Made by a program: the position numbers and the translations under genes
Notes under the pieces: model-generated
What the model saw: the letters and a program-made list of their open reading frames with translations, nothing else
Databases searched by the model: none
Told to the model about the DNA's origin: nothing
Part shown: positions 885 through 37,079 of the stretch, piece after piece
Numbering within the stretch: position 1 is the stretch's first letter
Layout: every line of letters starts with the position of its first letter
Virus record (IMG/VR): IMGVR_UViG_3300007735_000692
Span: 1-37,442 of that record
DNA from: a virus
DNA: 37,442 nt
Reading direction: 5' to 3' (one strand)

Positions 885-1284
885 TTGTGGGCATTGTGGG
901 TCAGATTGTGGGTCACGGAATCGGGGAGAATTGCCCACGCTCAAATGCCTGAAAACATAGGGCGGGATATGACTTGTGGGCATTGTGGGTCATCTCTTTA
1001 TCTTTAAGTTAAGAAAGAAATACTACTGTATAAACATACAGCTCGTACCAGGTGGAGCGCATTTCGTTGGAGCCGCTCCGATTTTTTTTCCGTGACCATT
1101 TGACCCACATGACCCACAAATCGCCCATGCCCCCCGATTTGTGGGCAATGTGGGCAATCGAAAACAAATTGCCCACATTGCCCACAACTGCAACGGCCAA
1201 AGAATTGCCCACATGACCCACACGCTAGGCGGCTAGCAGCCGGGGGGCGCGTAGCCGTTGCCCACATTGCCCACGCTGCCCACC
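885..1284. repeat. Array of 9-bp TTGCCCACA / TGTGGGCAA doublets (iteron-like)
   Basis: Seven exact TGTGGG sites (starting 886, 895, 907, 975, 984, 1140, 1149) and seven CCCACA sites (1104, 1113, 1172, 1181, 1208, 1217, 1261) lie within 400 bases, plus near copies at 934, 1270 and 1279. Most occur as pairs spaced exactly 9 bases apart. The 19-base unit at 885-903 is repeated at 974-992. Orientation flips along the array. Such clustered short repeats in a divergent gene-free region are typical of replication origins, packaging sites or multi-site operators; the sequence does not decide which. Confidence 0.85.
1139..1187. repeat. Perfect 19-bp inverted repeat within the 9-bp array
   Basis: The left arm (1139-1157) and right arm (1169-1187) are exact reverse complements over 19 bases, with an 11-base A-rich loop. 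Each arm is one head-to-tail doublet of the 9-bp unit. As DNA it could extrude as a cruciform or be bound by a dimer of dimers. As RNA it would be a very stable hairpin in either direction. It lacks a downstream T-run, so it is not a typical terminator. Confidence 0.85.
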
Positions 1285-1420
1285 GCGCCCAGGCTGGATG
1301 CAAATGATTCTCGTTTGCAACTGAGGGGGTGGGCCGGCCCGCGCGTGGCCTGTACCTGGTACGGAGGGGTTGCACAAAATTTTTTTTATTTTTTAACCAC
1401 CAACCCGTAAGCCAAAACCT

Positions 1421-1620
1421 TATGCTAATCTTGCGTGGCGATGTCTGACGTGATGCGCACGTAGCGACCGGGAGGTAGCTGAAGGGGTTATGAGCCCCAC
1501 CATCTAAGGCAATCTCCGCCCCGGCACACAGGCCACACGGTTGTTGTGGATTGCGGCCTCCCGGCAGGACAATCCTGCACATCGCTTGTCTTTTGCTTAC
1601 ATGAAAGGTAGTGTTGCGAC
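1421..1620 (+). ncRNA. Candidate structured RNA / leader upstream of terminase genes
   Basis: Bases 1438-1585 hold nested complementary arms. P1 is GCGATGT (1438-1444) with ACATCGC (1579-1585). There is a hairpin ACGTG/CACGT (1448-1462). P2 is CCGGGAGG (1468-1475) with CCTCCCGG (1557-1564), enclosing a hairpin GGGGTT/AGCCCC (1484-1498) and P4 GCAATC (1509-1514) with GATTGC (1549-1554), which itself encloses a CACA/TGTG stem. The last hairpin is CAGGA/TCCTG (1565-1577). All fit one non-crossing closed junction. A -10-like TATGCT at 1421-1426 would start RNA near P1, but no clear -35 is seen. I do not recognise a known RNA class. It could be an independent RNA, a terminase leader, or a DNA packaging structure. 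Confidence 0.45.
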
Positions 1621-2097
1621 ATGTTCAAATCGCTTCCGCACGCGCCACGGCAACTGAACGCTACTGAGGCGCGGCTACAGGCTATTTATGACGCAGCGGC
1701 CCTCGGGCTAAGAGGTGATAGTCTTGCCCTAGCGGCGGGGCTGTTGCCGGCGGAGTACCGGCGGTTGTGTCAGATGGACCCGCTCGCTGAGATGGCGGAG
1801 GCCAAAGGGCGTGCAGATAGTGAGTTTGAGGCCGCGAACCAACTGCGTGACGCGGCTCGCAATGGCGATTCAAAGGCTTCTTTGGCCATCCTTCAGCATG
1901 TGCACGGCTGGGTGGCGAAGCAACAGGTACAGGTCGATGTCAAGCAGCAGATCAGCGTCATCGCCGCGCTGCAAGAGGCAGAATCTCGCGTCATTGAAGG
2001 CCGAGTATTGCCGGATGAACCGGCTGCATTGACCCGCGCGCCCACCACGCTCGCTACCCGAGCCCTGACGGCAGAATATGCAACTTCCGATATATAG
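1621..2097 (+). CDS. terS: Terminase small subunit
   Basis: It recognises phage DNA and starts packaging with the large subunit. The 158-residue protein is mostly helical. Residues 12-50 look like a helix-turn-helix (an Ala-rich segment ending in AEYRRL), followed by a long amphipathic helical region and a Gly-Trp near residue 98. This is the layout of small terminases that bind DNA through the N-terminus and oligomerise through the middle. The assignment rests mainly on position, with its end overlapping the large terminase start by 20 bases. AAAGG at 1603-1607 is a rather distant ribosome site. The C-terminal 40 residues are low-complexity and may contact the large subunit. Confidence 0.75.
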   Translation: MFKSLPHAPRQLNATEARLQAIYDAAALGLRGDSLALAAGLLPAEYRRLCQMDPLAEMAEAKGRADSEFEAANQLRDAARNGDSKASLAILQHVHGWVAKQQVQVDVKQQISVIAALQEAESRVIEGRVLPDEPAALTRAPTTLATRALTAEYATSDI

Positions 2098-6898: not shown

Positions 6899-7201
6899 AT
6901 GGAACTTCTTAATCCGATGGCCGATGCCGTATACCCCGGTCGTACGGTAGCGTACACGGGCACCGCCGGCTCTACGGCGACTTGGCAGTCCGGCCCGCAG
7001 GGCGTAGTGGTATGGTGTACGTCAGCCGCGTACGTGGTCGTGGGTGAGGGCGTGACGGCAACAACTTCCAGCACTCCGATCCCGGCCAACACGCCAATTC
7101 CGTTCATCGTGCCGCAGGGCACTGGCGCGCCCTGGCGAGTGAGTGCCATTCGCGTGACGGCTGACGGCGACTTGTACGCCAAGCCCATCAACATCCGATG
7201 A
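6899..7201 (+). CDS. Putative minor structural protein (100 aa)
   Basis: The gene is preceded by a GAGGGT ribosome site. The protein is Gly/Thr/Val-rich with a strongly beta-prone sequence, consistent with a small jelly-roll or Ig-like fold used for head decoration. It ends in an ATGA overlap with the next gene. There is no recognised domain. A structural role is inferred from composition and from position between portal and scaffold. Confidence 0.65.
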   Translation: MELLNPMADAVYPGRTVAYTGTAGSTATWQSGPQGVVVWCTSAAYVVVGEGVTATTSSTPIPANTPIPFIVPQGTGAPWRVSAIRVTADGDLYAKPINIR

Positions 7202-32112: not shown

Positions 32113-34407
32113 ATGAAGTTCGCTGAATATATTAACAGTATTGCTCCAGAAGGGGAAACAATTTTATTCGTGCGCCAGGTGCCGATTGTCCGCAAGGGCG
32201 AGCACCTGAAGCACAAGGACGGCACGCCGCGCTACACATGGCCGCCGGGGCTTTATGGCAAGTACATGCGCAACCCCGAGGGGGCGTGGTACGCCAACAC
32301 GGGCTCGTTCATCGTTGACCGCATGACGGACAAGCTGTCCGCGTCTGCGCCTAACTGCGAGCGCGTGGCGTTTATGGTGCTGGATGACATCGGCACCAAG
32401 TCCAAGGTGCCGCCGATTGAGCCGACATGGAAGCTCGAAACCAGCCCCGGCAATTTCCAATGGGGTTACACCTTCGCGCTTGACGATCAACCAACCAAGG
32501 GCGAGTTCAGCGCCGCGATTAAGGCTATGGCCGAGGCTGGGTTCACCGACCCCGGCGCGGTGAATCCGGTGCGTAATTTCCGCATCGAAGGCAGCGTCAA
32601 CCTGAAGGAAGGCCGCGACAACTTCGCCGCCGTTCTTACCGAGTTCCACCCCGACCGCGAGTTTACCGTAACGCAGATCGTTACAGCCTGTGGCGTCACG
32701 CCAGGTGAGGTTGACACGGCGTATATACAGGGCATCGCCATCGAAGATGACGGCCTCGACAGCGTGTTGGAGTGGATACAGGAGCGCGGGCTGCTGCTCG
32801 CCAAGGCCAACCCCGAGGGCTGGTACGGCGTCGTGTGCCCGAACCACGCCGAGCACACCACAGCCGACACGCAAGGGCGGTATCACCCCGTCACGCGCAG
32901 TTATACTTGCTTTCACGGCCATTGCGGAGATTGGAACAGCGAGAAGTTCCTGCGCTGGGTCGAGGCCGAGGGCGGCCCGAAGACGGGCTACGGCCTGCGT
33001 GATGACCTGCTTGCGAAGAAGATGGAGGCCGCTTTGTCGAAGATCACCCCAACCGAGGAGTTCCCCGACACCGCCGCCGAGGTCATCGCCCAGGTCGAGC
33101 GCCGCGAGTTAGGCCGCGTCGAGAAGTCCAAGTGGTACGAGCGTTTCGCGTATGTCTTGAGCGATGACGCGTACTTCGACCTAGGCGAGCGTCACGAGAT
33201 CGCGCGCGGGGTGTTCAACGCGCTGTACCGGCATGTGACCTGCCATTCCATCCACAACAACCGACGCATCGAAGCGTCCGTCTGCTTTGACGAGAACCGT
33301 CAGGCGATGGGCGCGCGTGTGCTCGCGGGCGTCACCTTCGCCGCTGGCGAGTCCATTCTTGTCAGCCGCAACGGCGTCGTCTACGGCAACCGTTGGCGCG
33401 ACGCGCGGCCTACGGTGAGTGCGGGCGATGTCAGCCCGTGGCTCGCCCACGCCGAGCGCATGATTCCCGACCCTGCCGAGCGCGAGCATGTGTTCGATGT
33501 GATGGCCTATAAGCGCCAGCACGCCAACCAGAAAATCAACCATGCCGTGCTGCACGCGGGCAAGCCAGGATCCGGTAAGGACACGCTCTGGGCGCCCTTC
33601 TTCTGGGCGATTGGCGGCGACCAGCGCGTCAATGTCACGACGGTGCGTAACGAGGAGTTGAATTCGCAATGGGGCTACGCGCTGGAATCCGAGGTCATCG
33701 TCATCAACGAGCTGCGTCAGGCCGAGGCTAAAGACCGCCGCGCGCTCGAAAACAGCCTCAAGCCCGTGATCGCCGCGCCGCCGGAGCTGCTGACCGTCAA
33801 CCGCAAGGGGCTGCACCCGTATGACGCACTCAACCGCGTACTGGTGGTCTCATTCAGCAACGAGCGCGCCGCTATCAGCCTACCGTCAGATGACCGCCGC
33901 TGGTTCGTCGTGTGGAGCGAGGCCGACCGTATGCCGCCGAGTGAGGCCCGTGCGCTCTGGAGCTGGTACTACGCTGGCGGCTTCCAAGCCGTCACCGCGT
34001 GGCTCGACGCCCGCGATGTGTCGGCCTTCAACCCCGGCGCTGCGCCGCCCATGACCGAGGCTAAAATCATTATGATTGAATCGGCGATGAGCACCGCCGA
34101 GTCGTTCCTTGTCGAGATGATCCGTCAACGCCAGGGCGACTTCGCCCGTGGCGTCATTGCCTCCCCGTTCTACGCCATCTGCGACCGGCTGCAAGGCGTG
34201 GCACCCTCCGGCGTCAAGGTCGTTTCAGCGGCGCTCATGCACGCGCTACGGGATGCTGGGTGGGTCGATTGTGGGCGGCTGCACTCGCGTGAGTTTCCGA
34301 CCAAAAAGCATGTGTACGCCAACCCCAAATTTGCGACCCTTGCACGCTCGGAGCTGCGGCGGATGGCGGAGGGTGCGGAGCCGGCGCTATCTATCGTCGG
34401 GAAATAG
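32113..34407 (+). CDS. Primase-helicase: AEP (RepB-type) primase, zinc module, SF3/D5-type helicase
   Basis: It makes primers and unwinds DNA at the fork. The 764 residues divide into: an N-terminal primase with FMVLDDIGTK (87-96, catalytic Asp pair) and FRIEGSVNLK (156-165, the R-x-x-G-S-x-N-x-K motif of RepB-type primases); a zinc module with Cys242-x2-His245...Cys266-x3-His270-Cys271; and a C-terminal DUF5906-type helicase with GKPGSGKD (483-490, Walker A), EVIVINEL (526-533, Walker B) and VLVVSFSNER (sensor-type Asn). AGAGGGG precedes the start. Last gene of the replication operon. Confidence 0.88.
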   Translation: MKFAEYINSIAPEGETILFVRQVPIVRKGEHLKHKDGTPRYTWPPGLYGKYMRNPEGAWYANTGSFIVDRMTDKLSASAPNCERVAFMVLDDIGTKSKVPPIEPTWKLETSPGNFQWGYTFALDDQPTKGEFSAAIKAMAEAGFTDPGAVNPVRNFRIEGSVNLKEGRDNFAAVLTEFHPDREFTVTQIVTACGVTPGEVDTAYIQGIAIEDDGLDSVLEWIQERGLLLAKANPEGWYGVVCPNHAEHTTADTQGRYHPVTRSYTCFHGHCGDWNSEKFLRWVEAEGGPKTGYGLRDDLLAKKMEAALSKITPTEEFPDTAAEVIAQVERRELGRVEKSKWYERFAYVLSDDAYFDLGERHEIARGVFNALYRHVTCHSIHNNRRIEASVCFDENRQAMGARVLAGVTFAAGESILVSRNGVVYGNRWRDARPTVSAGDVSPWLAHAERMIPDPAEREHVFDVMAYKRQHANQKINHAVLHAGKPGSGKDTLWAPFFWAIGGDQRVNVTTVRNEELNSQWGYALESEVIVINELRQAEAKDRRALENSLKPVIAAPPELLTVNRKGLHPYDALNRVLVVSFSNERAAISLPSDDRRWFVVWSEADRMPPSEARALWSWYYAGGFQAVTAWLDARDVSAFNPGAAPPMTEAKIIMIESAMSTAESFLVEMIRQRQGDFARGVIASPFYAICDRLQGVAPSGVKVVSAALMHALRDAGWVDCGRLHSREFPTKKHVYANPKFATLARSELRRMAEGAEPALSIVGK

Positions 34408-36470: not shown

Positions 36471-37079
36471 TTAGGCGGCTTCGGCGGCAGCGGGTGCGGT
36501 CGGCGTAACGAGCCACGCGGGGTTCTCCAAGTGCGGCTGGCCGCGCATCGGCATGATTACGCCCACGGCGTCGCCAGCCAGCACCACACGGGCGGCGCTG
36601 TCGCCGTTATGCAGGATGGCGGGGGAATACTTACCGCCCAGCAGGGTCTGAACCTTGCCGAACGCGCCGATATAGTCGGCGTTGAATTGCGCGACTTCAC
36701 CCGACACGGTAAGCGGTACAACCTTACGCCAGTCGGGATATGTGGCGTCCATGAGCGGCGTGGTCGTGGCGGCGCTACCGTTGTTAATCGTTGCCGCGCG
36801 CGCGGTCGGGTCGATCGTCACCAGGATGGGGCGCTTTAGCACGGCTTTGACACCTTCCAGCGACTCGCGCCGGATGATGTAGCGACCCGGCACGAGCGCG
36901 GGCGCGTCATCGGTCACGGTGAGCGCCACGGCCAGCATCTTATGGCCGTCCGTTGCGACGGCCACGGCGTCAGATGCGCGAACATCAATGCATACGGAAT
37001 TCAGATAACTACGGACATCTTTTTTCGCAGCGATAACGAGCAGAGCTTTAATCGTGTCGGCGGGGATAAGGAATTGCAT
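36471..37079 (-). CDS. Shortened DnaN-like sliding clamp (202 aa)
   Basis: A processivity clamp related to the DNA polymerase III beta subunit. Landmarks match E. coli DnaN as I recall it: KKDVRSYLNSV (19-29; E. coli HQDVRYYLNGM), VATDGHKMLAV (41-51; VATDGHRLAVC), YPDWRKVVP (114-122; FPDYRRVLP) and VIMPMR (174-179; the C-terminal VMPMRL). The N-terminus starts where DnaN domain 2 begins, so domain 1 is absent and domain 3 is shortened; 23 residues extend past the usual C-terminus. CTGGAG precedes the start. Confidence 0.8.
   Translation of the reverse strand: MQFLIPADTIKALLVIAAKKDVRSYLNSVCIDVRASDAVAVATDGHKMLAVALTVTDDAPALVPGRYIIRRESLEGVKAVLKRPILVTIDPTARAATINNGSAATTTPLMDATYPDWRKVVPLTVSGEVAQFNADYIGAFGKVQTLLGGKYSPAILHNGDSAARVVLAGDAVGVIMPMRGQPHLENPAWLVTPTAPAAAEAA

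Follow-up and report, generated by a model that had tools for sequence, protein, structure and literature searches.

A 9-bp iteron array in a tailed-phage genome, very probably a replication origin recognized by the phage-encoded primase-helicase

In the replication origins of phage-inducible chromosomal islands (PICIs), an AT-rich stretch is bordered by two sets of iterons (PMC6092414). In SaPI Rep and SCCmec Cch2, the C-terminal domain of the helicase binds the origin iterons, and in the case of Cch2, a D5-type helicase, the isolated C-terminal domain binds direct repeats (PMC7581432). The initiator of PICI/SaPI elements is a D5-type helicase encoded by the element itself and sometimes fused to a primase. 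In satellite phage P4, a single polypeptide, the alpha protein, combines primase and helicase functions with recognition of the origin (PMC6092414, PMC7145576). Here we describe a repeat array in a phage genome that very probably serves as an iteron-type replication origin, with the D5-type primase-helicase of the same phage as its reader.

The window, the whole stretch of 37,442 bases that was analyzed, comes from an IMG/VR virus record. Its ends overlap by 127 bp, and it is best read as the circular map, ~37.3 kb in length, of a water-borne phage. The genes identified include those for a P22-type portal and coat, the large terminase, a PolA-type polymerase, an exonuclease, an SNF2-type helicase, and the primase-helicase. 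The gene upstream of terL (1621..2097, plus strand) was assigned as terS by its position and matched no PHROG or Pfam family. The array is located between short leftward genes and terS; on the circular map it lies ~3.8 kb downstream of the primase-helicase gene, beyond a block of leftward genes. The leftward operon also encodes a sliding-clamp-like protein (36471-37079, minus strand; DNA_pol3_beta_2, E 8.7e-8). The GC skew of the window, a check that had been requested for an origin, showed no clear switch and was uninformative on this point.

The array spans 885-1283 and contains 14 exact CCCACA/TGTGGG sites at 886-1266, compared with 0.6 expected and a maximum of 4 among 2000 shuffles. Eleven further sites are scattered over the window, in which no second cluster was found. 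Six same-strand pairs at 9-bp spacing occur in the array and none elsewhere in the 37,442 bases, and no 9-bp doublet appeared in 300 shuffles of the region. The fuller repeat unit is 9 bp long, T[T/G][G/A]CCCACA, represented in the window by the 9-mers TTGCCCACA and TGACCCACA. All units of the left set (885-992) are in reverse orientation: its first part (885..912, minus strand) holds three TGTGGG units (886, 895, and 907), and its second part (974..992, minus strand) is the doublet TTGTGGGCATTGTGGGTCA, a 19-bp unit whose exact copy lies at 885-903. The right set (1102-1283) is mostly forward and comprises a first doublet, GACCCACATGACCCACA (1102..1118, plus strand), one reverse doublet (1139..1158, minus strand), a forward doublet (1168..1187, plus strand) that is a perfect inverted repeat of 1139-1158, another forward doublet (1204..1222, plus strand), and a triplet of CCCACA, CCCACG, and CCCACC (1258..1283, plus strand). 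Two iteron sets of opposite main orientation therefore stand on either side of an AT-rich gap (991..1103), which has a GC content of 0.40, falling to 0.29 at 1000-1050, against 0.58 for the window, and which we propose as the unwinding element. Past the array, and ahead of a structured RNA, an A/T tract (1377..1400, GC 0.12) may serve as an upstream promoter element or a second AT-rich element. A 192-aa ORF on the minus strand (1004-1582) runs through the array as well as the structured RNA; it is not supported as a gene, its homologues being found only where the DNA itself is similar. No Rfam family was matched in the array region. A sequence-only reading of this DNA had described 14 sites, mostly paired at a spacing of 9 bases and far beyond chance, a 19-base unit repeated at 885 and 974, an orientation that reverses along the array, and a region free of genes; the counts, the shuffles, and the lack of support for the ORF bear out this description.

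We then analyzed 226 related loci, drawn from 80 relatives fetched through TerL and ~140 more fetched through the primase. In 161 of the 226, three or more exact doublets at 9-bp spacing lay inside a stretch of 700 bp, while control periods of 7, 8, 10, 11, and 13 bp gave 0, 0, 37, 16, and 9 loci, respectively; some of the hits in this period test, in short fragments, were coding noise. The location of the array was constant across relatives, and the 9-mer varied by clade in over a dozen classes, including TTGCCCACA, TGACCCATT, CTACCCCAC, TTGCCAATA, TTGTCCACA, TTGCCTACA, TGACCCAAA, TTGCCCAAA, and TGACCGAAA. The number and order of doublets differed even among close relatives, and the two-set layout around an AT-rich region was also read in L009, L236, and L245. 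In some relatives, such as L079, L294, and L298, a clear array was not obtained. A search of other genomes for the same doublets had been suggested, with lack of conservation in close relatives named as part of the ground for discarding the proposal; the 9-bp-period array turned out to be conserved, the 9-mer itself depending on the clade. A period that stays constant while the sequence varies is indicative of a binding protein with shifting specificity. Apart from its own TGACCTAG array, L245 also carries a lone TGACCCACATGACCCACA doublet (7122-7141) directly before an unrelated terS-like gene.

The candidate for this protein is the primase-helicase (32113..34407, plus strand), a D5/NrS-1-type protein with a DUF5906 domain. 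Its AlphaFold2 model had a mean pLDDT of 87, and the best structural matches in the PDB were the NrS-1 primase-helicase, followed by poxvirus E5/D5, the SaPI5 primase-helicase, and ASFV PrimPol. The likeness to the NrS-1 phage enzyme, at ~14% identity, concerns the protein alone. As judged from the model, the fold is of the D5/NrS-1/SaPI5 type, a class of origin-binding initiator helicases. In the C-terminal domain, the predicted helices 649-657, 661-671, 686-696, and 705-714 are followed by strands 718-723 and 732-736, which is the winged-helix order, and residues 724-731 form the modeled wing hairpin loop between the two strands.

Differences between 9-mer classes in this C-terminal domain were concentrated in residues 722-733 (RLHSREFPTKKH; codons at 34276..34311, plus strand), that is, in the wing hairpin. 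Wings reading HSREF/Y/W accompanied CCCACA, KSREYD accompanied TTGTCCACA, HSREH accompanied CTACCCCAC, and KSRAHD accompanied GGTCCACAT. CCCAAA was found with HSKEY and with ASGDY, TTGCCAAT with ASAEY, GCCGAAA with DSGEYR, and CCCATT with both KATPNG and KTADNG. These pairings follow a rule: when residue 726 (codon 34288-34290, plus strand) is arginine, the eighth base of the 9-mer is C, and when it is K, A, G, T, S, V, or Q, that base is A, T, or G. A first automatic count over 114 loci gave 63 with arginine and C and 49 with another residue and another base, all in agreement, and two against (L073 and L245). The L245 case was a miscall, its array being read by eye as TGACCTAG; after this correction, 93 of 93 distinct sequences agreed with the rule, the base-8 calls being the automatic majority plus hand-set classes (CTACCCCAC, TGACCCAT, and a few loci) and L073 being absent from the 93 rows as its protein domain is identical to others.

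Arg726 was the sole perfect predictor among 735 column-residue tests over the C-terminal half of the primase (|MCC| 1.00; next best 0.89). On a tree of the helicase core, each trait changed seven times, and all five independent pairs on supported branches agreed (sign test p 0.0625). A near-minimal contrast is provided by L301, L303, and L316, which have SKEY for SREF and CCCAAA for CCCACA in a domain 85-89% identical to that of the window clade. Three loci fetched later (two from a Rhodoferax MAG and one from an actinobacterial MAG), with arrays of TTGTCCACA, TAGCCCACA/TGGCCTACA, and TTGCTTACA, had C at position 8 in every case, all of these testable loci carrying arginine. In a sliding-window partial correlation the wing ranked first (r 0.24), by a small margin over other windows. 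A residue that would go with base 6 was also sought, but the association was clade-locked and uninformative.

The exception that stands is L073, which combines a TGACCCATT array with an HSREH-type primase of the CTACCCCAC clade. The swap does not extend beyond the array and the sequence directly next to it, and it could reflect recent recombination or a chimeric contig. No small gene of the leftward operon in L073 tracked the class, except for ORFs that overlap the array itself. Two further comparisons were set aside: L291/L304 against L288-296 as a swap contrast, since just one doublet in the L304 array is clear, and phage DSL-LC05 (L005), whose TGACCCACTGGG repeats are not 9-bp doublets and in which a primase homologue was not found.

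The change of the 9-mers in step with the wing loop, chiefly with Arg726, makes the primase-helicase, and not the packaging enzyme, the apparent reader of the array. A packaging site (pac or cos), at which the small terminase subunit would bind the array to start DNA packaging, had been favored in the sequence-only reading on account of the adjacent terS. This gene lies ~340 bp downstream of the array, and arrays do lie upstream of terS in many relatives. TerS nevertheless did not track the site sequence and was rejected as the reader on sequence grounds: L070 and L074, with TGACCCATT, encode TerS proteins 98.6-100% identical to those of L063, L066, L071, L072, L075, and L076, with CTACCCCAC, and 180 pairs of different class, all of them TGACCCATT versus CTACCCCAC, share TerS at 90% identity or more. 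The best TerS column for base 8 reached 0.61, against an |MCC| of 1.00 for Arg726, and identity over the whole winged-helix domain, itself an imperfect predictor of class, performed better than TerS. Arrays also stand beside unrelated terminases, as in L236 and L238, where the terminase has no alignable similarity to that of the window and the portal differs as well. Packaging is consequently a very improbable function of the array, and of the two functions named in the sequence-only reading, origin or packaging, only the origin gained support, from the residue-base covariation. It is slightly less improbable, but still very unlikely, that the array is mainly an operator to which the primase-helicase or another regulator binds in order to control divergent promoters. 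The region is divergent, a LexA box lies within it, and a possible leftward promoter was read by eye (TTGACA at 828-833, a 17-bp spacer, and TAATCT at 805-810), while a promoter scan at the array gave no convincing match. Against this, the best-tracking partner is not a repressor but a replicative helicase-primase, the arrangement of an AT-rich gap between two iteron sets suits an origin, and no small regulator gene that tracks the 9-mer classes was found in the locus examined. Autoregulation by the primase-helicase in addition to initiation is possible.

The 9-mer also resembles TTATNCACA, which raises the question whether the units are boxes bound by the DnaA of the host or by a DnaA-like protein of the phage. 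Some classes (L285, L295, and L329) read TTATCCACA or TTGTCCACA, which are DnaA boxes or nearly so, and a protein with a DnaA domain IV is encoded in one relative, MW202483. In most classes, however, mismatches fall on the conserved positions of the DnaA box, and the window has units of TTGCCCACA and TGACCCACA instead of an array of TTATNCACA boxes. To our knowledge, host DnaA specificity does not vary as much as these 9-mers do. PF08299 was matched in one of the 31 genomes or records searched, MW202483, and was absent from the window, so that a phage DnaA-like protein was discarded as the reader; we regard the DnaA explanation as the least credible of all, with hardly any weight. The protein in MW202483 (L006; 31423-31719) is 98 aa long (PF08299, E 1.1e-17), and the array unit in that genome is CTACCAA.

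For the origin read by the primase-helicase, we propose that the C-terminal winged-helix domain would bind the 9-mers, mostly as head-to-tail doublets, with the wing hairpin determining the 9-mer that is recognized and arginine 726 recognizing the G:C pair of base 8. An arginine contacting guanine from a wing would be chemically ordinary. At the two oppositely facing iteron sets, one on each side of the gap (991-1103), the ring helicase would be loaded; the AT-rich gap would melt, and the fused primase and the phage PolA would then start copying. We infer physical binding, helicase loading, and origin firing from what is described for the family, in SaPI Rep, Cch2, and the PICI origins.

The organization of the window origin is best read as similar to that of PICI origins. 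A cognate D5-type initiator is present (DUF5906, with structural matches to NrS-1, E5/D5, and SaPI5), and the strong covariation at residue 726 suggests that its C-terminal domain may read the iterons. Several features differ. The array lies ~3.8 kb from the initiator gene rather than directly 3' of it, and the window represents not a satellite lacking a full capsid gene set but an entire tailed phage that encodes a terminase (terL), a P22-type portal and coat, and a PolA of its own. The units of the array are doublets of 9 bp, and their sequence is not the same from one close relative to another. The SCCmec Cch2 system, with its putative origin, differs in having three 5-nt iterons without a two-set array and in being a chromosomal cassette, not a phage. 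In P4, replication depends on iterons at ori and, separately, at crr, whereas a single array of different sequence is found here.

If the wing rule holds, the C-terminal domain of the window protein (~640-764) should prefer TTGCCCACATTGCCCACA over TTGCCCAAATTGCCCAAA, and for the SKEY protein of L303 the order should be reversed. As the series suggests, a single residue in the wing of a winged helix may determine a single base of the iteron, and such a residue-base rule would help computational origin finding in metagenomic phages. More tentatively, and with considerable doubt on our part, these phages may repeatedly re-code a private lock and key of initiator and origin by small wing changes, such as arginine 726 to lysine, leaving the other replication machinery unchanged, and a LexA box in the melting region would couple origin use to host DNA damage. 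Under such a scheme, co-infecting relatives or satellites would be unable to use each other's origins.

The box in question is a LexA (SOS)-type operator, TACTGTATAAACATACAGCT, with the pattern CTGT-N8-ACAG, located in the AT-rich gap at 1024..1043, where LexA may bind, as its sequence suggests. The pattern occurred in 56 of 126 array regions, belonging to several 9-mer classes, at 0.405/kb compared with 0.016/kb in the rest of the loci, a 25-fold enrichment.

Between the array and terS lies a conserved structured RNA of ~150 nt (1436..1588, plus strand), a neighbor of the origin that is outside our claim about the array. Compensatory changes were seen at 16 of its 41 pairs, 99.7% of cells were paired, and it had no match in Rfam. 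As a guess, it might act in put-like antitermination or as a leader RNA where the long rightward transcript begins. Some members of the group also have the RNA before terS, and it is found in L031, L032, L033, L043, L048, L052, L078, and L301.
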